Below, piece by piece: positions 22,359 through 33,359 of a stretch of DNA of 42,282 nucleotides. A program made the position numbers and the translations under genes. Within the stretch, counting starts at the first letter, position 1, and each line of letters begins with the position of its first letter. Source of the stretch: a virus. A model generated the notes under the pieces. The model was given only the letters and a program-made list of their open reading frames with translations, searched no databases and was not told where the DNA came from. The stretch is from IMG/VR virus record IMGVR_UViG_3300042310_000928, positions 1-42,282 of that record; one strand, written 5' to 3'.

Positions 22359-23003
22359 ATGAAAGATATAACATGGATGCCTTCTTGGGCATCGTACAAT
22401 AGAGAAGATCAGGTACATCCACATCAAGAAGAAGAAAAATCACATCTTTTTCATGCTCTTGATATTGGTTCAACTGAATATGAAGTATTAAATTGGATTC
22501 ATTCTACAATTCGTGTCCTAAAACCAAAATTAGTTTTGGAAACAGGAGCGTATGAGGGAATCGGAACTTTAGCTTTAGCTCATGCCTGCAAACTAAATGG
22601 ATTTGGAAAAGTTATCAGTATTGAAAATGATTCCAAACAATGTGTCAAAGTCGAAGAAATATTAGAAGAAAATAATTTAAAAAAATATGCAGAAGTTATT
22701 TGCTCAGATAGCATTGAATTTCTAAATATAACAAATTATAAATTTGAAATAGGATTTTTTGATAGTGAGACAACTATTCGTGCAAAAGAATGTGAAATTT
22801 GTTTAGATCGTAATATTTTAAATAATGTTGCTATATTTCATGATACTTCACCATATCGTCTCGATGTAATTACACCTCAACACATTCAACAAAAGTATAG
22901 AAGTGATATTTTTGAACTAGCACGACATCCAAATTGTACAGGATATTATGATTCTTGTTTATCAAGAGGATTTATGGCCTTATGGCTTAAAAATTATTCG
23001 TAA
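22359..23003 (+). CDS. Class I SAM methyltransferase (Methyltransf_24-like)
   Basis: 214 residues starting 5 nt after pyrB. KLVLETGAYEGIGTLALAHA (about 56-75) is motif I with E-T-G-x-x-x-G. VISIENDSKQCVKVEEIL supplies the acidic ribose-binding residue, and FEIGFFDSETTIRAKECEIC with NVAIFHDTSPYR resembles the D-x-x-H/HD metal-type region of small O-methyltransferases. It could methylate a hydroxyl of a sugar or small molecule. It converges on and overlaps by 10 nt the minus-strand gene 22994-23707. Coupling to pyrB suggests co-expression, not a shared pathway. Confidence 0.7.
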   Translation: MKDITWMPSWASYNREDQVHPHQEEEKSHLFHALDIGSTEYEVLNWIHSTIRVLKPKLVLETGAYEGIGTLALAHACKLNGFGKVISIENDSKQCVKVEEILEENNLKKYAEVICSDSIEFLNITNYKFEIGFFDSETTIRAKECEICLDRNILNNVAIFHDTSPYRLDVITPQHIQQKYRSDIFELARHPNCTGYYDSCLSRGFMALWLKNYS

Positions 23004-23707
23004 GGAAATAATTCTTTAAATTTTTCTCTGACATTGTCATTAATGCAAGACATATAAACATCAAGTTCAAAATTAATTTTCTTATAATCATCTTCTGTAA
23101 ATATTTTTTTAACAAATGAAGAAATAGCAAGATAATAAGGAGAAATTTTTCCAAGATTAATCCATCGGAAAATATTATTGTTAATATAACATTCTTGCAT
23201 TTTGTTTAATGTGTGTTCAGAGCCGAATATTTTAGCAAAAAATTCTTTTGTTTTTTCAATTCCATCAATTGCTTTTTGGAATCCAATTCCATTAGCAACA
23301 GATTCTGCTGGTTTATTTTTGACTGAGTCGTACCTTTTCTTCCAAAGCTTCCATCTTTTCCAAGCTCTTTCGCCAACTAAGCAGTTTGGATCAATAAGAG
23401 GATGATCTTTTCCAGAATTTATATATTTAAGAACTTCTAACTGAGCACGGATATAAAGTGAATATTCATTGTTCTCAAGAATTCCCTGAGTTTCTCTTGC
23501 AAGCTTATATGCTATTTTAAATATGAGAGACTTTCTAGGGTCGCCCTTTTTCATTGTTGAGTGACGATAATCAGGAAATGTTTTTCTGCTCTGTTCAAGC
23601 CACATTGCAGAAAGATTGCAAGCTTTTGCCTCAAGATCGTCCATATTATACTTTTCAACTGCATCTAAGAGCCACATGTAGTCATCCTCTTTTTTTTCAG
23701 ACTTCAT
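22994..23707 (-). CDS. Hypothetical protein, 237 residues
   Basis: A helical, basic protein (MKSEKKEDDYMWLLDAVEKY... KKGDPRKSLIFKIAYKLARE... SLYIRAQLEVLKYINSGKDH...) with many aromatic residues. The regular alternation suggests an all-alpha fold. Lys/Arg patches (GERAWKRWKLWKKRYDSVKN) could contact nucleic acid. I do not recognise the family and see no catalytic motif. It is a single minus-strand gene between plus-strand genes; its start has AGGAG 5-6 nt upstream in the short divergent spacer (23708-23746). Confidence 0.55.
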   Translation of the reverse strand: MKSEKKEDDYMWLLDAVEKYNMDDLEAKACNLSAMWLEQSRKTFPDYRHSTMKKGDPRKSLIFKIAYKLARETQGILENNEYSLYIRAQLEVLKYINSGKDHPLIDPNCLVGERAWKRWKLWKKRYDSVKNKPAESVANGIGFQKAIDGIEKTKEFFAKIFGSEHTLNKMQECYINNNIFRWINLGKISPYYLAISSFVKKIFTEDDYKKINFELDVYMSCINDNVREKFKELFPYE

Positions 23708-23746
23708 GTTACTCCTTTAAATTTGGAAAAGCAAGGTATGTATTAA

Positions 23747-24634
23747 ATGAAAATAGCATTTTGCCCATTAGTTAGTCGTGATATGGACAAGGCAATTCGT
23801 GCCACAAATTCTTGTCGCAATCAATTTTCAACCGAATCCATTGAAATAGAAACAGTTGCAATTATCAATTCTCAAAATCAAGAATTTGTTTCTCATTTTT
23901 CAGAATGGTGCGAAAAAGAGAATGTCAAATATAAAGTTACAGAATCAAATGGCACTCCGAGTAAGGGTAAAAACTCTGTATTAGATTTTTTGCAAAACTC
24001 AGAATATGATGGTCTGAGTCTCACTGATGGAGACGACCTATTTTACCCAACAGGCGCAATTCAAATTGAAAAACACATGAGGCATCACCCGGGAACTGAT
24101 GTTTTAATTGTCAAGCCTTCAGATCAAGTTTTAAATGAACAAACAAACGGCTCTAATCAGATTGGAGAAAATAAATATGCAGTATGTTGGGGCATGAATA
24201 TTATTAATCTTGGATATAAGTATGGACCCGAAAAGCATGATATATTTACATTAGGTCATAAGGCAGCAAGAAATTTAGGTGGACATGTATTTTATAGTAA
24301 AAAATTAAGCAACATGATAAGGTACGATGAAGAACAATTATTGGGAGAAGACCTACTTCTTGAATTCAATCTTCTTAAACTTCATCAAGAAAGTAAAATA
24401 TCATTTTGGTTAAGTTTTGCTAGTGATGTACAGATGTTAGATAGAACTAATCAAGAAAGCATACAAAAAACTAAAAATAGTAGTTTCGGTAGTGTTTGTT
24501 ATGAAAGGCTGATTGAAAAAGTAAGGGAAATATTGCCTGAGGATAGAAGTTCTTTTAATGAATTGCCAGTAGAGTTTCCAGAAATTATTTTTAATTATGA
24601 TCAAAAAATTGAATGGTTGAAGCAAGTTTTTTGA
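23747..24634 (+). CDS. GT-A type glycosyltransferase
   Basis: 295 residues. MKIAFCPLVSRDMDKAIRAT starts the family 2-like nucleotide-binding strand. SEYDGLSLTDGDDLFYPTGA around residues 84-103 contains the D-G-D-D variant of the DxD metal/donor motif in the expected place after a hydrophobic strand. GEDLLLEFNLLKLH (about 204-217) resembles the E-D catalytic-base region. The ribosome site AAGG lies about 10 nt upstream of ATG. It stands alone between unknown genes and the putative RNA region, not in either glycan cassette. Substrates unknown. Confidence 0.65.
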   Translation: MKIAFCPLVSRDMDKAIRATNSCRNQFSTESIEIETVAIINSQNQEFVSHFSEWCEKENVKYKVTESNGTPSKGKNSVLDFLQNSEYDGLSLTDGDDLFYPTGAIQIEKHMRHHPGTDVLIVKPSDQVLNEQTNGSNQIGENKYAVCWGMNIINLGYKYGPEKHDIFTLGHKAARNLGGHVFYSKKLSNMIRYDEEQLLGEDLLLEFNLLKLHQESKISFWLSFASDVQMLDRTNQESIQKTKNSSFGSVCYERLIEKVREILPEDRSSFNELPVEFPEIIFNYDQKIEWLKQVF

Positions 24635-24654
24635 CATTTTGGGGCAAATAATAT

Positions 24655-24682
24655 TTGACATTCATGCTTTAATCTGTAGAAT
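24655..24682 (+). promoter_or_regulatory. Sigma70-like promoter before the structured RNA region
   Basis: TTGACA (24655-24660) is a perfect -35 box. After 16 nt comes TAGAAT (24677-24682), preceded directly by TG. It begins only 21 nt after the glycosyltransferase stop and more than 500 nt before the next start codon, so the first product must be a long untranslated RNA or leader. It is the best match to consensus in the window. Confidence 0.68.
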
Positions 24683-24684
24683 AT

Positions 24685-25190
24685 GGTTGGCAATCCCCCA
24701 ACTGGATTCAACAATGGTTTCGTACTACCTGAGTTGATGAAGGTGCCTAACCTGTGAGGCCCATACCATGGGCAGGTCTTTGTAGTTGTTCTACAACAAA
24801 TGCTATTACGGGTAGCATTGTTCTCACGGCAGTAGAGGTAAAGTCGAATAGAATTTATGCTGACTTTCATGGCTCCTGTGTCTCCCAAACAAACACAATG
24901 CCATGGACTATTCGATCTTAGGTTTACTGCAAAAAAAAGTACGCAAGTCTTCACCAACCAAAAGGTAAAAGCTGAAGTGAATAAGACAGTAACAAAAAGA
25001 ATAAGCTTAAACGCTAAATTTTTGCTCTACTAATCTTGTTTACCTAATAAGTCATTATTCTTACTGACTTATACAGCAATTACCATTTAGGTCAGCATCC
25101 CGTTCCAAAGTTTGATTGTAAATAAAAATTTCAAAAATAAATTGGTCTTGTTTTAACTGGAAAAGTTTTGCAGAATTGGGCCTAGGAGGA
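24685..25190 (+). ncRNA. Putative large structured RNA or long structured leader
   Basis: No plausible gene on either strand. Complementary segments (by eye): 24686-90/24698-702; 24708-12/24733-37; 24750-54/24773-77 around 24759-64/24768-73; 24780-85/24791-96; 24795-805/24813-821 with one bulge. A long arm stacks 24829-34/24925-30, 24841-51/24908-19 (11 bp, one bulge) and 24868-73/24900-05. Next are 24947-54/24977-87 (3-nt bulge), and 25042-47/25087-92 around 25048-54/25065-71. A loop at 24857-64 can pair with 25091-98 (8 bp), a possible pseudoknot. A promoter precedes it; no clear intrinsic terminator follows, and the polymerase gene with an AGGAGG site starts at 25198. It may be a trans-acting RNA or a cis leader. 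I did not recognise tmRNA, RNase P RNA, 6S or a group I intron core. Confidence 0.6.
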
Positions 25191-25197
25191 ACGATCT

Positions 25198-26511
25198 ATG
25201 AATTTTGAATCTCTGGCCAAGTTGTTATCTGGAATTGATCAGAAAGCCGTTTTCTTGCGGTTTAATCCAGAGATCATGGACATTGCTGAAAAAGACTTGG
25301 AGAATGAGCTTCAGTTCATGCTTTCTGATGGTGTTTCGTTTCAAGTAATGATTCGTGATGATACATTGCCTTTAATTTTGAGTATGTTGCAATTATCATT
25401 GTTTTCAAAAGATAAAAAGGTTTTTACTTGGAATTGGAAGAACTTTTCAAGCTATGTTTTGTGTAAGACTGGCAAGAGTCTTGATATAAAGGCTTCTATA
25501 ATTGATATAAAGATATTAGAATCATTTAGTGGTATTAAAAAAGTTGCTCCTGTTTCGTTTGTTGAGGCGATGAATAGGATTAAGCATTTGGTTTCGTCGG
25601 GTTTGTGGAAAGAAAGTGAAAACATTTATCGTAAGATTCATTTACCGTTAATGACGACAGTTCTGCCTCATCTTGAGAGTGTAGGAATATTGGATGTAGA
25701 ACGTGCTGCCAAAGTACACGCTTACTACGAGATTGATGGTCAGGAAAACGGTCGATTACGTTGTCATGGGGCTTACAAAAAATCATTTGTTCCGCATACA
25801 ATGGGATCTGATTTGAAAGATGTTTTGAAGCCGATTGGTTGTGATAATTTATTTATGAGTTTTGATTTTAAGGGTATGGAAGTTTTTGTGTTAGCCAACT
25901 CTAGTCAAGACTCTAAACTATTGCGTTTGTGTGAGTGTGATGATATTTATTCGGCACTGTTTCAGGTCTTGATGTCAAGTGATCCAGAAAAAAATGATAG
26001 GGAATTGGCAAAAAAATGCTTCTTGCCTGTTATATATGGACAGTCGGCCCGATCACTTTCTTTGAGATGTGGTTTGGCGGCTGATGTGGCTGAGAAAGTG
26101 GTGGAGCGAATTAGTTCTTTGTTTCCCACTGCTATTTCATTTGTTGCCGATTGCGAAAGCAAAGTTAAAAAAGATGGATACGCAAAGGATATCTTCGGTA
26201 AGCGAAGAACAAACTTTGAGGTTGGCAAGGAATATCTTGCTAGAAATTTTGCTGTGCAGTCTCCTGCTGCAACGATATGCCTAGAAAAGTTGATTAAATT
26301 ATATTTTGCGTTGGAAGGCAAAGCTCAAATTGCTTATACTGTACATGACGGTTACGTTATTTATGTAACTAAAGATAACTGGAAACAAATTTTCAAGAAA
26401 AGCATGGATGCGCTTACAAGCGAATCTGAACTTTGTCCTAAACTTCGACTGAAGGTTTCATGTCGTGGTGGACGCAATCTTAACGATTTGAAAGTGATAA
26501 AAACGTCTTAA
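25198..26511 (+). CDS. Compact family A DNA polymerase
   Basis: 437 residues; TAGGAGG lies 7-8 nt before ATG. Polymerase motifs: A, MSFDFKGMEVFVLANSS (about 219-235; catalytic Asp and the Glu steric gate); B/O-helix, DRELAKKCFLPVIYGQSARS (about 263-282; Arg, Lys, Tyr-Gly); C, AYTVHDGYVIYV (about 378-389; His-Asp). The first 150 residues hold only remnants of a 3'-5' exonuclease fold (VFTWNWKNFSSYVLCKTG), without visible DED catalytic acids, so proofreading is probably absent. The residue matching E. coli Phe762 is Leu, followed by Pro where Gly is usual. It is shorter than a Klenow fragment (about 600 residues). Probably the phage replicative polymerase, given the helicase downstream. Confidence 0.85.
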   Translation: MNFESLAKLLSGIDQKAVFLRFNPEIMDIAEKDLENELQFMLSDGVSFQVMIRDDTLPLILSMLQLSLFSKDKKVFTWNWKNFSSYVLCKTGKSLDIKASIIDIKILESFSGIKKVAPVSFVEAMNRIKHLVSSGLWKESENIYRKIHLPLMTTVLPHLESVGILDVERAAKVHAYYEIDGQENGRLRCHGAYKKSFVPHTMGSDLKDVLKPIGCDNLFMSFDFKGMEVFVLANSSQDSKLLRLCECDDIYSALFQVLMSSDPEKNDRELAKKCFLPVIYGQSARSLSLRCGLAADVAEKVVERISSLFPTAISFVADCESKVKKDGYAKDIFGKRRTNFEVGKEYLARNFAVQSPAATICLEKLIKLYFALEGKAQIAYTVHDGYVIYVTKDNWKQIFKKSMDALTSESELCPKLRLKVSCRGGRNLNDLKVIKTS

Positions 26512-26521
26512 AGGAGAAGAA

Positions 26522-27073
26522 ATGATTGAGATTGTTCACAATTTTCCAATTACTGAAATTGAATTTTTTGATCTTGATAAAAAGTTTTCCAAGCTTTGTT
26601 GGCACGCAGCGCATGAATTGAAAAAGAAGAATAGCAATAATAATTTTATTGATGACGCAGAAGATATAAAGCAAGAGCTTCAGATGAGTATGCTTAGGGC
26701 AGGAAGCTATTACAAGAGGCAAGTTTATATCGAGAGATGTCTTGATGTAGCTAAGAAGTATGTGAGTGATAATTTTATTCAAAAAGTTTTGGAAGAGCTT
26801 CAAAATCTTTGGGAGAATAGAACTCGTCACGGAGCCAACCGACAGAAATATGGTTGCTTTCAAGAAAATTTACTTGAAAACATTATCAATAGATTTGTTC
26901 CAAAGGATCAGCAGCCTAAAAAAGATGCTCCTTTGAAGATTGACACTAAGTTCACGACATATTGCAAGGCAATTGTTTGGAATGGTCAGAAGAGCATGGG
27001 TAAAAGAATTACCCGTGAAAAATCAATTCGTAGTGGTATGGTTTCATTAAGCGAGTTTGATTTCCTGCATTGA
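26522..27073 (+). CDS. Possible late sigma factor (gp55-like)
   Basis: 183 residues, AAGGAG before ATG. DAEDIKQELQMSMLRAGSYY (about 45-64) resembles sigma region 2.2 (D-L-x-Q-E-x-x-x-x-L-x-x-A), and IDTKFTTYCKAIVWNGQKSM (about 139-158) resembles region 2.3 ('F-S/T-T-Y-x-x-x-x-I/W'). The last residues, MVSLSEFDFLH, are a hydrophobic tail like the sliding-clamp-binding C-termini of T4 gp55 (S-L-D-F-L). A charged insertion lies between the two halves. It follows the polymerase by 10 nt and precedes a terminator. If correct, it would direct host RNA polymerase to late promoters. Weak similarity by eye; another helical replication accessory protein is possible. Confidence 0.4.
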   Translation: MIEIVHNFPITEIEFFDLDKKFSKLCWHAAHELKKKNSNNNFIDDAEDIKQELQMSMLRAGSYYKRQVYIERCLDVAKKYVSDNFIQKVLEELQNLWENRTRHGANRQKYGCFQENLLENIINRFVPKDQQPKKDAPLKIDTKFTTYCKAIVWNGQKSMGKRITREKSIRSGMVSLSEFDFLH

Positions 27074-27192: not shown

Positions 27193-27255
27193 CAAATTAA
27201 TCTAGATGATTTCATATTTTTGTGTTATTCTGGTGTGAGCCTACAGGAATAATTG

Positions 27256-28785
27256 ATGCGTGAACTCACACCAGAAGAACAAGCCAAGCTTGAATCAATG
27301 ACTGACCCAGAAGTCATTAGGCCTAAATTTGCATGGGATGATACTTTTCAGCGCAGATTGTTGGCGATGATTTTGACTGATGATTATATGCTTGTTCAGT
27401 CGATGGATAAAATTAAACCTGAATATTTTAGCAATGAGGCTCATGTAATTATTTGTCGTATTCTTCTTGAATATTTTAGCACCAAAAAGTCTATACCAAA
27501 GGATTGGATACTTCAGCAAGAATTATCTAATGCCCTTAAAGATCGTGATCGTACAATTCAGTTGCATTATCAAGCTGAATTGAAAAGTGTTTATGACTAT
27601 TATGTCCCGGGAGTTGATTCTCGTGAATACCTGATAGACAAGGTAACATATTTTGCTAAAGTTCAAGCTGTAAAGCTTGCTTTCCATTCTAGTTTGGAAA
27701 AAATGCAAGAGGCTCCTGAAGATGAAAAAACATGGAGTTTTGTTTACGAAAAAATGCGTGAAGCCATGCTCGTGGATAGGTCTTACGAACCGGGTCTTGA
27801 ATACTTCATGAATATTGACGAAATGTTTCGTCGTATGGATGATGTATTCATTGGTAAAGATAGATTCACATCGGGTTTCCCAGCGATTGACAATGCCTTG
27901 ACGGGCGGCGGATTGTTTGCTGGTCAGATTGGAAGTTGGATTGGCTTGCCGGGAACTGGTAAGTCTCTAGCTCTAGTAAAAACTGCTGTTCAGAATGTTT
28001 TACTTGGCCATAAGGTTCTTTATATTACATTGGAAATGGATGAGCTTGGTATTGTTCAGAGATTTACAAGTCAGTTTGCCAAGATGGACATCAATAATCT
28101 TCGTGATATGAAGGATGAAATTAAAGCAACTATTGAAGAATTCAAAAAGGAAAAAGAAGATCCAAATCTATTGCACGTCAAACAGTTTCCCGGCGGTCAG
28201 ATTGATGTCAATGGAATTAGAGCATATATGGCGCAATTAGAATTAAGAGGATGGAAGCCTAATGTTTTAATTGTTGACTATGTTGGTGAAATGAAAGACG
28301 ATCCATCAGTTAAAAAATATGAAAGTGCTTATCGTATTTTGCGTGATCTTCGTGGTTATGGAGTTGAAAAAGGTCATTGTACATTTACATGTGTTCAGCC
28401 AAACCAAAGTGCTGCAAAACTTGAAGTTGGTCAATATATTGATGAATCTAATATTGGCACTAGCTTTGATCAGTTCAAACCTCTTGATGCTTTCTGGTCA
28501 ATTAATCAGCAAGTTCTTGAAAAAGATGCTGAAGTTGGAAGGGTTTTTGTCATTAAGCACAGGAATGGTCGGTCAAGGTTTGCATTTAAGATTGGCTTTG
28601 ATTATAAGATTGGTACTCTTGACATGTTTGAAATATCGAAGGATACATATCGTGAAAGAATGAACTTGATTCAGGAAAAGAAAGCTGGAGAAGTTACTAT
28701 GGACAATGTAGGCGATGCTCCTTCGGGCAAGAAGCAGCGCAGTAAAAAGGGATTTGTTCCAGAAGAAGACACCTACGAGGCATAA
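27256..28785 (+). CDS. DnaB-family replicative helicase (T4 gp41 role)
   Basis: ATG 27256 (MRELTPEEQAKLESM) has AGGA 7 nt upstream; the in-frame TTG just before is less likely. About 509 residues. The N-terminal 150 residues are helical (RRLLAMILTDDYMLVQSMDK), like the DnaB N-domain. The RecA-like core has GSWIGLPGTGKSLALVKTAV (Walker A), VLYITLEMDELGIVQRF, WKPNVLIVDYVGEMKDD (Walker B), and a C-terminal IKHRNGRSRFAFKIGFD, matching the 'K.R.G..g....f' motif with the arginine finger. It unwinds DNA ahead of the fork as a hexamer. No primase is in the window. A Lys/Arg tail (SGKKQRSKKGFVP) may bind DNA. Confidence 0.87.
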   Translation: MRELTPEEQAKLESMTDPEVIRPKFAWDDTFQRRLLAMILTDDYMLVQSMDKIKPEYFSNEAHVIICRILLEYFSTKKSIPKDWILQQELSNALKDRDRTIQLHYQAELKSVYDYYVPGVDSREYLIDKVTYFAKVQAVKLAFHSSLEKMQEAPEDEKTWSFVYEKMREAMLVDRSYEPGLEYFMNIDEMFRRMDDVFIGKDRFTSGFPAIDNALTGGGLFAGQIGSWIGLPGTGKSLALVKTAVQNVLLGHKVLYITLEMDELGIVQRFTSQFAKMDINNLRDMKDEIKATIEEFKKEKEDPNLLHVKQFPGGQIDVNGIRAYMAQLELRGWKPNVLIVDYVGEMKDDPSVKKYESAYRILRDLRGYGVEKGHCTFTCVQPNQSAAKLEVGQYIDESNIGTSFDQFKPLDAFWSINQQVLEKDAEVGRVFVIKHRNGRSRFAFKIGFDYKIGTLDMFEISKDTYRERMNLIQEKKAGEVTMDNVGDAPSGKKQRSKKGFVPEEDTYEA

Positions 28786-29620: not shown

Positions 29621-29648
29621 TTGACTTAAATTATTTATTTTGTATATT
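29621..29648 (+). promoter_or_regulatory. Sigma70-like promoter for the acetyltransferase gene
   Basis: TTGACT (29621-29626), a 16-nt spacer and TATATT (29643-29648), with TG directly before the -10. The expected transcript start is about 15 nt before the acetyltransferase ATG, in the AGGAAGGGG ribosome site region, giving a very short leader. Confidence 0.55.
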
Positions 29649-29670
29649 GTCTCTAGGAAGGGGACATAAC

Positions 29671-30174
29671 ATGTCAGAACCGACGATGCGATGGATACTG
29701 CAAAGCGACATTTCTTCAATCATTGAGATAGAAAATCAATGTTTTCCTTTTCCTTGGGATGAAAGGGATTTTGATATTTGTCTTAAAAATAAAGACAATG
29801 TTGGTCTTGTTATTGAAAAAGATCATAATATAATTGGGTATCTTATTTTCAGTTTGGGTAAAAATTGTTATAATGTTATAAGTTTGGCTGTTGATCCCAA
29901 AATGTGTCGTAAGGGCTATGGGAATCGCATGATCCAATATTTGATAACAAAAATTAGATCTTCAACACAAGGTCCGAGAAATAAAATAAATGTGATTGTC
30001 AGTGATCAAAACTTAAATTGTCATCAATTTTTAAAGGCAATTAGTTTTACTGCAATAAAGGTTCGTAAAAATTATTTTGGTCCACTTCACGATGCTTATG
30101 AATTCGTTCTTGATATGAATGAAGTCAAAAAAAATATTGTGAAAAGAAACTATAAGGCTAAGAAGAATGCATAG
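29671..30174 (+). CDS. GNAT-family N-acetyltransferase (RimI-like)
   Basis: ATG 29671 follows AAGGGG with good spacing; a TTG further upstream is rejected. 167 residues. The N-terminus MRWILQSDISSIIEIENQCF, then FPFPWDE, mirrors RimI ('..l..I..iE..cF..pWs'). ISLAVDPKMCRKGYGNRMIQ (about 72-91) contains the acetyl-CoA pyrophosphate-binding R-K-G-Y-G motif (Q/R-x-x-G-x-G). KVRKNYFG near the end resembles the 'R..YY' segment. It should transfer acetyl from acetyl-CoA to a protein N-terminus or small amine; the target is unknown. The C-terminus is basic (KRNYKAKKNA). Confidence 0.8.
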   Translation: MSEPTMRWILQSDISSIIEIENQCFPFPWDERDFDICLKNKDNVGLVIEKDHNIIGYLIFSLGKNCYNVISLAVDPKMCRKGYGNRMIQYLITKIRSSTQGPRNKINVIVSDQNLNCHQFLKAISFTAIKVRKNYFGPLHDAYEFVLDMNEVKKNIVKRNYKAKKNA

Positions 30175-30191
30175 GACATGTTGAGGATCTA

Positions 30192-31088
30192 ATGGTAGAA
30201 AATAATGATTTGACAGGATTTATCAGCAATGATATTCCTGTTCTTGGCAATGATGAAAAAAGACAATGTGGAGATTTGCCACTTGTTTATGTTGACAACT
30301 TGAAGAAAAATACGATAGGCAAAAAAATACCTTTTGATTTGTCACCGCAATATTTGTGGAATTTATTTCTGAATCAAAACGGAAAATGTAGCCTGTCTGG
30401 AATGCCATTAGAATTTAATTCATTTGATTTAGAAGGTGATTTTTCTTCTGTCTTTTTAGACATGATAGATCGTTCCCTTGGATATATTGAAGGGAATGTT
30501 CGTTGGATACATAAAAATTTAAGTATTATGCGAGGTAGTTTCACAGATGATGTTTTTCTTGAATATTGCAGAAGATGCTTTTTAAATAATTATTCTATTG
30601 GGAAAATTGAAAGGCCTACTTTTGATGAATACTTTCTAAACATAGCATTTGATGTTTCTTTAAGATCAGATGATCCTGATATTAGACATGGATCTGTGAT
30701 CGTTACCAGTCAAAATCATATTATTGGAACTGGATATAATGCGACAATTCGTGGATCGGATAAGAGCAAAATTCCTTATAAAATAAGAGATAAAAAAAGA
30801 TTATGGATGATTCACGCAGAAGAGAATGCCATTTTGAACTGTACCACAAATCCACTTACCATAGGTGGATCTAAAATATACATAACAGGAACTCCATGCG
30901 TTAATTGCTTGCAGAGAATTATCAATTTTGGCATAAATGAAATAATTTATGCCAAGAGAGTTGGTTCTATTACGGAAAACGATGAAACAAATAAAATGAG
31001 ACAAGATATAATTTTAATGTCTGGAATTAAAATTCGTGAATTTGATTTAGATAATGTTTGGTTAAAGAAAGCGGTAGATGTCAATTAG
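30192..31088 (+). CDS. HNH-like domain fused to a dCMP deaminase-like domain
   Basis: 298 residues; GAGGA precedes ATG. Residues about 52-137 look like a phage HNH module: YLWNLFLNQNGKCSLSGMPL, FLDMIDRSLGYIEGNVRWIH, then LEYCRRCF. The pattern 'C..sG..l...lD.iD...GY..GNv.wvh..iN.mk' is typical, though the catalytic His is uncertain. Residues about 142-280 are a cytidine/dCMP deaminase domain: RHGSVIVTSQNHIIGTGYNA, IHAEENAIL (zinc H and catalytic E) and TPCVNCLQRIINFGINEIIY (zinc C-x-x-C). The deaminase part would convert dCMP to dUMP for dTTP supply, as in T4. The continuous frame argues for a true fusion. The 3' end overlaps the converging glycosyltransferase gene by 8 nt. Confidence 0.75.
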   Translation: MVENNDLTGFISNDIPVLGNDEKRQCGDLPLVYVDNLKKNTIGKKIPFDLSPQYLWNLFLNQNGKCSLSGMPLEFNSFDLEGDFSSVFLDMIDRSLGYIEGNVRWIHKNLSIMRGSFTDDVFLEYCRRCFLNNYSIGKIERPTFDEYFLNIAFDVSLRSDDPDIRHGSVIVTSQNHIIGTGYNATIRGSDKSKIPYKIRDKKRLWMIHAEENAILNCTTNPLTIGGSKIYITGTPCVNCLQRIINFGINEIIYAKRVGSITENDETNKMRQDIILMSGIKIREFDLDNVWLKKAVDVN

Positions 31089-32031
31089 CTTTACATTCTT
31101 TTTGAAAAGCATCGATTATTTCTTCAAATCTAATATCGCTCATACAAGGTTTTATAATTTCTTTTGATTTTGGACAGATTGTGCAATTATAGCATGGACC
31201 ACAATCCCAATTGCCATTGTCACGATGTCTTTGAACCAATGTGAATTTGTAATATTTACCGTATACTTTTCCATCGGTAAATGAAAAAATTCCTACTAAT
31301 GGTTTTTTTAAAGCTCCAGCAAGATGAAATGTTCCTGTGTCAATCGATATGACATAATCTGCTGCTGCTGTCAATCCTGCCCAAGCAGAAAGTTCTATAT
31401 TAATAAATTGAACAGTATTTGTTAGTGTGAATATTTCAATTGGCTCTTTGTGAATTGTAAAAACAAAGAACCCAAGCTCTTTGAGTTTGCTTATTGTTTG
31501 GTAGGTAGTTTTTTCTGGCAGACTTTTAGCTTGGCCGAAATTGTCTTTTGTTGATTGAGTTGCGAATAAAACAGTTGGCAGTTTTTGTGGATTAAGTTCT
31601 TCAATAAATTTTTTATAAAGATCTACATCATTAATTTCCATGTGACAGTTGTGATTCGTAAGTTCTACACCACAACTTTTCGCCCATATGTCACTGCGAT
31701 GGTCAGTATTTCTCCCGCCCATTTTACTTTCATGAACACGACAAGCTGTGCTTATGTCAAAAATAATGCCATAATCTCTTTCATTGATTTCTTCTATAGG
31801 CACCCATTTTGCAAATGGGTGATTATTTGCAAAATCTTTATATAATTTAGGACATGTGTAGGTTAATTCTATTTCTGGCATGTGTTTTTGAAAATCTTCA
31901 AACATCATTCTTTGCATGATGATATCACCATGACCACCATACTTTCTTTTAATTAAAACCTTATTTCTTCTCAGAAAGTGTTCTTTTAGACTTATTGGTT
32001 CAATTTGTTTTTTCTTAACATAAGGAAACAT
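31081..32031 (-). CDS. GT9-like glycosyltransferase
   Basis: 316 residues. IKRKYGGHGDIIMQRMMFED (about 27-46) matches the 'r..aiGDvi...p....lk' N-terminal motif of ADP-heptose:LPS heptosyltransferases. The C-terminal half holds LTAAADYVISIDTGTFHLAG, then ALKKPLVGIFSFTD, the donor-binding 'vi..DsG.mHlAaalgkP.v.lfg' signature of family GT9. CGPCYNCTICPKS near the C-terminus is Cys-rich, as often seen in this group. It probably transfers a heptose-like sugar in the cytoplasm. A 203-nt non-coding stretch lies between its start and the upstream UDP-galactopyranose mutase. Confidence 0.82.
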   Translation of the reverse strand: MFPYVKKKQIEPISLKEHFLRRNKVLIKRKYGGHGDIIMQRMMFEDFQKHMPEIELTYTCPKLYKDFANNHPFAKWVPIEEINERDYGIIFDISTACRVHESKMGGRNTDHRSDIWAKSCGVELTNHNCHMEINDVDLYKKFIEELNPQKLPTVLFATQSTKDNFGQAKSLPEKTTYQTISKLKELGFFVFTIHKEPIEIFTLTNTVQFINIELSAWAGLTAAADYVISIDTGTFHLAGALKKPLVGIFSFTDGKVYGKYYKFTLVQRHRDNGNWDCGPCYNCTICPKSKEIIKPCMSDIRFEEIIDAFQKECKAN

Positions 32032-32040
32032 ATATATATT

Positions 32041-32123
32041 GTCTCTTTTTACTACCTCGGTATTACAATTATAAAAGTTCAGGCTGTCTGTATGGATGTC
32101 GGATCATTATGTAATACCTGAAA
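32041..32123 (-). other. Gene-free stretch with competing inverted repeats
   Basis: Between the GT9-like gene and UDP-galactopyranose mutase. GGTATTAC (32059-32066) pairs with GTAATACC (32111-32118), and TTCAGG (32078-32083) pairs with CCTGAA (32117-32122); the two right arms overlap, so only one can form. On the minus strand this would be the leader of the GT9-like gene, which has no good ribosome site. It could be a switchable leader or chance. The remaining 80 nt up to the mutase hairpin shows nothing clear. Confidence 0.35.
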
Positions 32124-32204
32124 CCTTAATGCAGGAAAAGGATGCTTTGAGGCACTTTTCAAAGGCAATTCAAATAAGTTTAATTAAAAACTTGAAATCG
32201 AGAC

Positions 32205-32236
32205 AGAGAGGTTAACCTTGTTGGTTTAGCCTCTCT
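32205..32236 (-). terminator. Possible terminator hairpin after UDP-galactopyranose mutase
   Basis: AGAGAGG (32205-32211) pairs with CCTCTCT (32230-32236), with further pairing of TTAACC against GGTTTA and a 5-nt loop. It touches the mutase stop codon. On the minus strand the following sequence is not a T-run, so termination would be weak or rho-dependent. Confidence 0.4.
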
Positions 32237-33359
32237 ACACAAATGTTTTAAACTTAGTTAATGCTGAAGCAATTGTCTGGTCAATGTCCAGATATTTATA
32301 TTCACCAAGCCTTCCTCCAAAAGTGATTTCTTTGTGGTTTGTTTTAAGATCTGCGTACTTATTGTATAGTTCGCTGTTTTTATCATCTCTGATTGGATAG
32401 TAAGGTTCGGGATGATCTTTAAATGCAACTGGAATGTCATATGAGACAACAGTTTCTTCTTTCGATTGCAGCTTGACTTCATAATGTTTTGGATTGTTTT
32501 TGTAAAAATGCTTATGCTCTATTGTCCTGATATGTGGCACAGACATGTCTACATGATTAAACACAGCATTCCCTTGATAGTCGCCATGCATTTTTTTGTG
32601 TTCAAATCTTAAAGTGTTGTATTCCAAAGATCCAAACTCATAGTCGTAAAACTTATCTATTGGTCCTGTGTAGATCAGATGTTTGGCATAATCACGCCAT
32701 TTGTTTCTAATTGTAAAAAAATCAGTATTGAGTTCTGTTTTAATTCCATCAAGCATATTTTTTATTGTTGCTGAATATCCTTCATTTGGAATGCCTTGAT
32801 ATTTTGTTGTGAAATAATTTTCTTCATAAGTAAGTCTTATTGGCAGTCTCTGAATTATTGAGGCTGGAAGATCTCTAGGTTCTTTCATCCATTGTTTTTT
32901 AGTGTATCCATAAAAGAATAATTCATAGATTTCCTTGCCAACTCTGTCTAAAGCCCATTCTTCAAAGTTTCTAGGATTTTCGCATGGTATCCGCACATCT
33001 TGCAGTTTACGGTATGCTTCTTCTGGATTGATAACTCCCCATAATTGATGAAGAGTCATCATGTTAATTGGGAATGAATAAACATTTCCTTTAGATAAAA
33101 CTTTTGGTTTGTTTGTGAAAGGCATAATTGTTGTGAATTTATTAATGAAGTCCCAGACTTCTTCGCTTTGAGTGTGGAATATGTGCGCTCCATATTCACT
33201 TACAATAATGCCATTGTCCCATTTTCGATCATATGTTGCGCCAGCAATGTGATTGTTTTTATCAATTACAAGGCACTTTTTGCCAGCATCTGTTGCTTTT
33301 CTTGCAAAAGTGGCACCAAAGAATCCTGATCCCACAATCATAAAGTCAAATTCAGGCAT
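32235..33359 (-). CDS. glf: UDP-galactopyranose mutase
   Basis: 374 residues, a typical length for the family. FDFMIVGSGFFGATFARKAT at residues 4-23 is the FAD dinucleotide-binding G-x-G-x-x-G. The rest follows Glf: HIAGATYDRKWDNGIIVSEY, then GAHIFHT; FFYGYTKKQWMKEPRDLPAS with the substrate Arg; LIYTGPIDKFYDYEFGSLEY; and PEPYYPIRDDKNSEL with GGRLGEYKYLDIDQTIASAL. The reduced-flavin enzyme converts UDP-galactopyranose to UDP-galactofuranose, the donor for galactofuranosyltransferases. It lies 1 nt from the upstream glycosyltransferase on the same strand, so the two are co-transcribed. It implies a galactofuranose-containing glycan. Confidence 0.95.
   Translation of the reverse strand: MPEFDFMIVGSGFFGATFARKATDAGKKCLVIDKNNHIAGATYDRKWDNGIIVSEYGAHIFHTQSEEVWDFINKFTTIMPFTNKPKVLSKGNVYSFPINMMTLHQLWGVINPEEAYRKLQDVRIPCENPRNFEEWALDRVGKEIYELFFYGYTKKQWMKEPRDLPASIIQRLPIRLTYEENYFTTKYQGIPNEGYSATIKNMLDGIKTELNTDFFTIRNKWRDYAKHLIYTGPIDKFYDYEFGSLEYNTLRFEHKKMHGDYQGNAVFNHVDMSVPHIRTIEHKHFYKNNPKHYEVKLQSKEETVVSYDIPVAFKDHPEPYYPIRDDKNSELYNKYADLKTNHKEITFGGRLGEYKYLDIDQTIASALTKFKTFV

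Follow-up and report, generated by a model that had tools for sequence, protein, structure and literature searches.

A large structured RNA conserved directly upstream of the family-A DNA polymerase gene in bacteriophages, with a possible part in replication

We analysed a virus record of 42,282 nt, taken at its full length as the window, and found a large structured noncoding RNA of ~440 nt (24688–25130, both ends approximate; all coordinates are on the plus strand unless noted) directly before the gene for a short family-A DNA polymerase (437 aa, 25198–26511; PF00476, E = 1.7e-27). The assignment draws on the fold, on covariation and on a covariance model, and we regard the RNA family as all but certain to exist. 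The original prediction of a large structured RNA with its own, predicted promoter is borne out by covariation, by the retrieval of non-seed relatives with the covariance model and by conservation across divergent phages. The class is new relative to Rfam 15 and to the literature found by search, which was accessible in part and in which no description of the ~440-nt RNA was found. Few RNAs of this size have a conserved pseudoknotted fold, and among those known several are ribozymes or form the cores of large machines. Phage genomes thus still hold undescribed structured RNA classes of ~440 nt.

Homologues and genomic position

Using the polymerase as bait, we collected relatives whose polymerases are between 35% and 100% identical, carried by contigs of up to 381 kb. 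The RNA was aligned upstream of the polymerase in nearer relatives and traced by motifs in farther ones. An identical stretch of 558 nt, without a single change, is present in seven further records. The homologues lie directly upstream of the family-A DNA polymerase gene, and polymerase identity among the bearers reaches down to ~40%. A 595-kb phage record with a 34% identical polymerase showed no such RNA upstream by sequence inspection and model search. These sequences suggest that the window derives, as a fragment, from a lineage of huge phages. The contig of one relative (L070) is binned as a Neisseriaceae genome, which may reflect either the host or misbinning.

A search that started from the RNA, with a pattern taken from its core and the polymerase left unused, matched 30 contigs, of which 17 were already known via the polymerase and 13 were new. 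The polymerase lies downstream of the RNA in all 13 new contigs and is 39–43% identical to the best of the 12 query polymerases. By our reading of the sequences, these 13 contigs represent about four lineages, with nine near-copies of one another and two near-copies of another. Two other search patterns for the RNA were badly spaced; one of them matched nothing, and an early form of the core pattern matched 2 contigs. The position of the RNA is fixed, directly before and in line with the operon of the family-A DNA polymerase.

Extent and coding content

The conserved part of the RNA stops at ~25130, with a conserved GAUUGUAAA at its 3′ end in the alignment (25114–25122) followed by an AT-rich stretch. 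The RNA therefore measures ~440 nt rather than the ~500 nt proposed originally, when its end was placed at 25197, just before the ribosome site; in the window, the conserved fold stops ~70 nt ahead of the polymerase start codon. The AT content is 63–83% in the 70 nt behind the RNA and 48–70% in the RNA body. The description of the stretch as gene-free holds: it contains no conserved frame, the relatives gave no coding signal, and an antisense ORF of 118 codons (24601–24957) has a related frame only in L011 among 23 loci.

Fold of the RNA

Folding of 24685–25197 gave −138.8 kcal/mol, compared with −113.5 (sd 6.2) for shuffled sequences (z = −4.07; 0 of 100 shuffles as low), and three sub-stretches gave z values of −1.0, −2.1, and −2.7. 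In the window phage, the sequence begins with a 5′ hairpin (GUUGG/CCAAC, 24686–24702); in farther relatives another 5′ hairpin takes its place, with the loop CUC or CUU in most. Its count (H1) covers 16 sequences, five of the window's group being left out and one row (L052) not found. A long-range helix (24721–24943) joins 24721–24726 with 24938–24943 (CGUACU/AGUACG). With hand-placed strands, its pairs 2–5 form in 22 of 22 sequences and pairs 1 and 6 in 19 and 21, both sides are changed in up to 13 sequences, and 0 of 20,000 shuffles paired as well. The core (24748–24842) consists of helices 24750–24753/24836–24839 and 24754–24758/24823–24827, together with hairpins at 24759–24773, 24785–24797, and 24800–24818.

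The arm at 24829–24930, proposed from the window as a stack of three helices (24829–24834/24925–24930, 24845–24851/24908–24914, and 24868–24873/24900–24905), is real and is kept by compensatory change. Its outer helix forms 105 of 111 pairs over 21 sequences (L097 left out), and its inner helix 131 of 132 pairs over 22 sequences with 21 different 5′ strands. Besides the long-range helix, the fold contains two pseudoknots. One arises where the outer arm helix crosses the core-closing helix; the other joins the arm loop to the 3′ region. The latter had been predicted as 24857–24864 with 25091–25098 and is real, yet of the 22 sequences counted only 15 and 17 form its two end pairs; as 24858–24864/25091–25097 (span 24858–25097), it was matched by 0 of 20,000 shuffles. 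Its fourth pair is U–A in 9 sequences, C–G in 10, A–U in 1, and unpaired in 2, and as placed it pairs poorly in L069, L044, and L047. Further towards the 3′ end lie a hairpin with a UUAAAC loop (25004–25015; 13 sequences with 9 left out, reached by 1 of 20,000 shuffles) and a hairpin formed by AUAAGUCA and UGACUUAU (25047–25072), which was seen by eye in the alignment, has counterparts in nearer relatives and is uncounted.

Covariation and covariance-model searches

Compensatory changes abound in the homologues. In a structure-fitted alignment of 22 homologues, 98.7% of 612 pair cells are paired as against 74.5% after shuffling, and changes on both sides occur in 25 of 29 pairs (150 such cells versus 39.8 in shuffles). 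When the same structure was slid by 1–3 columns, 31–40% of the cells paired. The weakest measure was the number of further pair types (52 versus 43.4), which 2 of 500 shuffles reached. For single helices, the 3′ strands were re-dealt among the 9 to 17 representatives of each helix. None of 20,000 such shuffles reached the observed pairing of the 5′ hairpin, the inner core helix, hairpin c, the three arm helices, the long-range helix, or the pseudoknot, and four short helices were reached by 1 to 6 of 20,000; these positive tests use a structure-fitted alignment and hand-placed strands, both of which lean towards pairing. The hand-placed count omits, from the 22 sequences, 5 for H1, 3 for H3, 4 for H4, 9 for H6, 1 for H7, 6 for H8, and 9 for H10, and the row of L058 for H4 was, like that of L052 for H1, not found and dropped. 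A structure-blind covariation test over all column pairs of a MAFFT alignment gave no significant pair, either by a G-test (105,111 pairs) or by a pair score (97,903 pairs). These home-made tests were modelled on R-scape with a tree-based null and used 22–23 deeply split sequences; we take the negative result as low power, because the sequences are few and deeply split and MAFFT misaligned the helices.

A covariance model (R1) was built from 14 seed sequences and recovers 22 of 22 homologues, including 8 outside the seed at E values of 2e-28 to 1e-4. Two of these, L030 (2e-28) and L034 (4e-28), are close relatives of seed members. The distant non-seed matches are L058 (9e-13), L044 (7e-11), L069 (2e-9), and L049, L051, and L047 (6e-6 to 1e-4). 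Three matches in alignment A7 were due to chance (E 0.95 to 3.3), and counting was done on A8 (E up to 0.01). In each of the 10 RNA-bearing records searched, the model gave one match, before the polymerase, and no other under E 0.9; the search omitted the G012 and G018 pieces. At E up to 1, no match was obtained in G009, G011, G015 (first 200 of 343 kb), G016, G017, L039, L056, L065, or L071, and the search of these records returned a single match at E 3.

That the stretch works as DNA and not as RNA, through origin repeats or an overlooked gene, is hardly credible. A likely origin nearby would suit such a reading, but compensatory changes in 12 helices, the absence of repeats of 14 nt or more from 22900–25300 and the lack of a conserved open frame all argue against it.

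Comparison with known RNA classes

The original prediction could not match the RNA to a known one by eye, and Rfam gave no family at the gathering threshold in the window or in 10 loci. At E up to 10, the RNA stretch yielded a weak snoRNA match at E 1.6 alone, and five loci holding homologues yielded none at E up to 1. The Rfam models for RNase P RNA and for group I and II introns were without a match, and neither these models nor ARAGORN (window and 14 loci) detected a tmRNA. A very diverged tmRNA, RNase P RNA, or group I intron that the models missed would fit the compact pseudoknotted fold in this size range; given the Rfam and ARAGORN results, we consider this very improbable.

The RNA had also been proposed as a possible trans-acting RNA in the size class of GOLLD and ROOL, and nothing beyond size supports this tie: there is no Rfam match, and neither the window nor any of 14 scanned loci, at most 13 kb long, showed a tRNA gene. 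ROOL and GOLLD are often near tRNA islands, a trait that is not strictly defining (PMC12286853). With them the present RNA shares that it is a large phage-encoded noncoding RNA with a complex fold and no assigned function (PMC12286853). It is shorter than GOLLD, many of which exceed 800 nt (PMC12286853), and differs from both in adjoining a DNA polymerase gene instead of tRNA genes. The RNA might nevertheless act in trans in a job outside replication, for instance as an assembly made of RNA, like the RNA-only multimer cages of ROOL and GOLLD, or as a decoy for a host protein, and would then lie here because early genes cluster by the polymerase. Its size, pseudoknots, and phage origin recall ROOL and GOLLD, it has a promoter-like site of its own, and no conserved contact with the polymerase gene was seen. 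Against this stand the polymerase neighbour in 13 of 13 new contigs from the RNA-based search, the lack of nearby tRNA genes and the absence of an Rfam match at gathering; we regard the reading as rather unlikely.

Promoters and terminators around the RNA

A sigma70-like promoter is predicted at 24655–24682, with TTGACA at 24655–24660, a 16-nt spacer and TAGAAT at 24677–24682, placing the start near 24689. The boxes described originally are thus present, with 11 of 12 matches, yet the site alone is not significant: 24560–25300 holds 3 promoter-type sites where 1.9 are expected. A two-strand scan of that interval in the window listed no minus-strand site, such as a counterpart of RNA I, the antisense regulator of ColE1, would need. 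At the same offset, 91–93 nt before the core, L028 and L034 have TTGACA-17/16-TATAAT and L035 has TTGACT-17-TACAAT; L030 lacks a promoter at this offset and has TTGCAA-17-TACAAT further up. Sites beating 95% of shuffles precede the RNA in 9 of 22 loci, the window's second, more distant site being uncounted. The search interval of this shuffle-scored scan missed the RNA promoter of the window group. Adding four window-type sites, which are TTGAC-type, share one offset within the window's group and have no shuffle comparison behind them, gives a promoter-like site upstream of the RNA in 13 of 22 loci. With loci treated as independent, the combined promoter scores give p = 2e-8 before the RNA and 5e-4 before the polymerase.

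The RNA could instead serve the polymerase operon as a long 5′ leader, in which transcription from the RNA promoter would run on into the polymerase gene and binding of the fold by the polymerase, another phage protein or a ligand would set the polymerase output. Wherever found, it is directly upstream of and colinear with the gene, and the distance from the 3′ strand of the pseudoknot to the assigned polymerase start is 96–123 nt in 18 of 22 loci and 155–170 nt in 4 (starts of L077, L078, L084, and L097 approximate). No terminator turned up between the RNA and the polymerase in a simple search of 22 loci, and 18 of these loci have no site before the polymerase that beats 95% of shuffles. The window itself has no good promoter there (best shuffle fraction 0.27), so its polymerase mRNA may include the RNA. 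Other observations speak against a leader. The G–C threshold of the terminator search excluded an AT-rich hairpin with a T-run at the 3′ end of the RNA in L069, seen by eye. Sites above 95% of shuffles do precede the polymerase in 4 of 22 loci (L030, L037, L044, and L052), and the combined pre-polymerase scores beat shuffles. In L037 and L052, as in the RNA-less L063 and L066, a promoter-like −10 box ends 6–7 nt before the polymerase start; this suggests a leaderless polymerase mRNA in all four, which in the first two would not contain the RNA. These sites, found in few relatives, speak mildly in favour of a separate RNA. In phage T4, the DNA polymerase gene (gene 43) is linked to an upstream RNA element, a translational operator that takes the form of a small hairpin located at its ribosome site. 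The present RNA is likewise ahead of such a gene, but its fold ends ~70 nt short of the start codon, and no conserved pairing that reaches the ribosome site was seen by eye in the alignment. Taken together, a leader seems somewhat unlikely but is a serious rival, as is an RNA acting in trans outside replication.

Descent with the polymerase

The polymerase tree, rooted at its midpoint, has 32 tips, and all 23 that bear the RNA belong to a single clade of 26 (support 0.67). The other three tips of this clade, L039, L041, and L042 (contigs of up to 223 kb), have a long ORF-free stretch before the polymerase with no recognised RNA and no model match; in L041 the nearest upstream ORF of 70 aa or more is 795 nt away. 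Since these tips are nested among RNA bearers, the RNA was lost, was replaced or is beyond recognition there, and the ORF-free stretch may contain an RNA that has diverged strongly or been replaced by another. Among the six tips outside the clade, five are without the RNA and L056 is ambiguous. The simplest reading of these sequences is that the RNA has been inherited together with the polymerase.

Replication-origin signal and possible role

As an indirect marker of origins, we used GC skew at third codon positions, comparing the genes of each strand separately. The scan covered 17 records, all fragments: 12 with the RNA (among them the window and its near-copy G014) and 5 others, G015 over its first 200 kb only. 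In the window, G005, and G006, the skew increases at the locus. The record's strongest upward step falls no more than 3 kb from the locus in 4 of the 12 RNA-bearing and all 5 other records with a half-window of 15 kb, in 3 of 12 and 4 of 5 with 25 kb, and in 4 of 12 and 5 of 5 with 40 kb. In the majority of RNA-bearing records the strongest step is thus elsewhere; G001 and G007 have a weak step at the locus. Combined rank fractions at 25 kb give p = 0.001 for 11 RNA-bearing records and 2e-5 for the 5 others, assuming independence in a set with near relatives (window/G014, G003/G012, and G009/G011). The sign of the skew agrees with a rightward leading strand through the polymerase operon, colinear with the RNA. 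The RNA-less G016 and G017 also show the origin signal at the polymerase; as these 2 of the 5 other records are clearly without the RNA, the position of the origin does not need it.

The ColE1 plasmid offers a parallel: its RNA II, a structured pre-primer of ~550 nt, is codirectional with leading-strand synthesis and serves a family-A DNA polymerase. By analogy, the present RNA is structured, would be colinear with the leading strand by the sign of the skew, and lies beside a family-A polymerase gene; it differs in belonging to bacteriophages whose genomes run to hundreds of kilobases. In phage T4, host RNA polymerase makes phage RNA that primes replication at R-loop origins; no conserved 440-nt fold is known in these origin transcripts. 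The reading we prefer, tentatively, is that the RNA has a role in replication, as an origin RNA that would start or control it, and we infer a separate transcript acting at the origin. An RNA II-like role is suggested by a selected, pseudoknotted fold of 440 nt, a likely origin, colinearity with the leading strand and the adjacent family-A polymerase. In the mechanism that we consider the most probable, the RNA would be transcribed from its own promoter beside the polymerase gene, and its fold would keep the newly made transcript on the AT-rich DNA that follows its 3′ end. The hybridised RNA would then stay and, like RNA II, prime synthesis of the rightward leading strand by the polymerase encoded next to it; alternatively, the RNA may recruit replication proteins to the AT-rich DNA. 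That the RNA itself primes replication at the origin, a step taken from the analogy, is unlikely, and it is similarly doubtful that huge phages carry as part of their origin a dedicated, ribozyme-sized RNA that locks onto origin DNA and primes the leading strand. If true, phages whose genomes span hundreds of kilobases would have evolved an RNA II-like start system. An RNA kept together with the replication polymerase makes the start of replication in huge phages directly testable, at one RNA and one place.

Neighbouring genes

The neighbourhood was compared across 23 loci, some without a recognised RNA. F0, a helical protein of unassigned function (26522–27073), is encoded after the polymerase in all 23, and a DnaB-like helicase (27253–28785) belongs to a family found in 19 of 23, some of them with short flanks. 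Across the RNA from the polymerase lies the divergently oriented F2 (22994–23707, minus strand), with a family in 18 of 23. No convincing known fold or family was found for F0 or F2; a faint likeness of F0 to a sigma factor, resting on matches to two single-member PHROGs (E = 0.045 and 0.085), was dropped. A primase zinc domain (PF01807) occurs in 1 of 6 records, which may be fragments.

Some observations concern other loci. In L065, a CRISPR-like array was seen by eye at the usual place of the RNA, within ~0.5 kb upstream of the polymerase, with several copies of a repeat of ~36 nt and unique spacers. In the RNA-less L067 and L071, a second polymerase-like frame seems, by eye, to abut the polymerase upstream. 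Within the window, 29647–33359 carries genes for a GNAT acetyltransferase, a dCMP deaminase, and a UDP-galactopyranose mutase.
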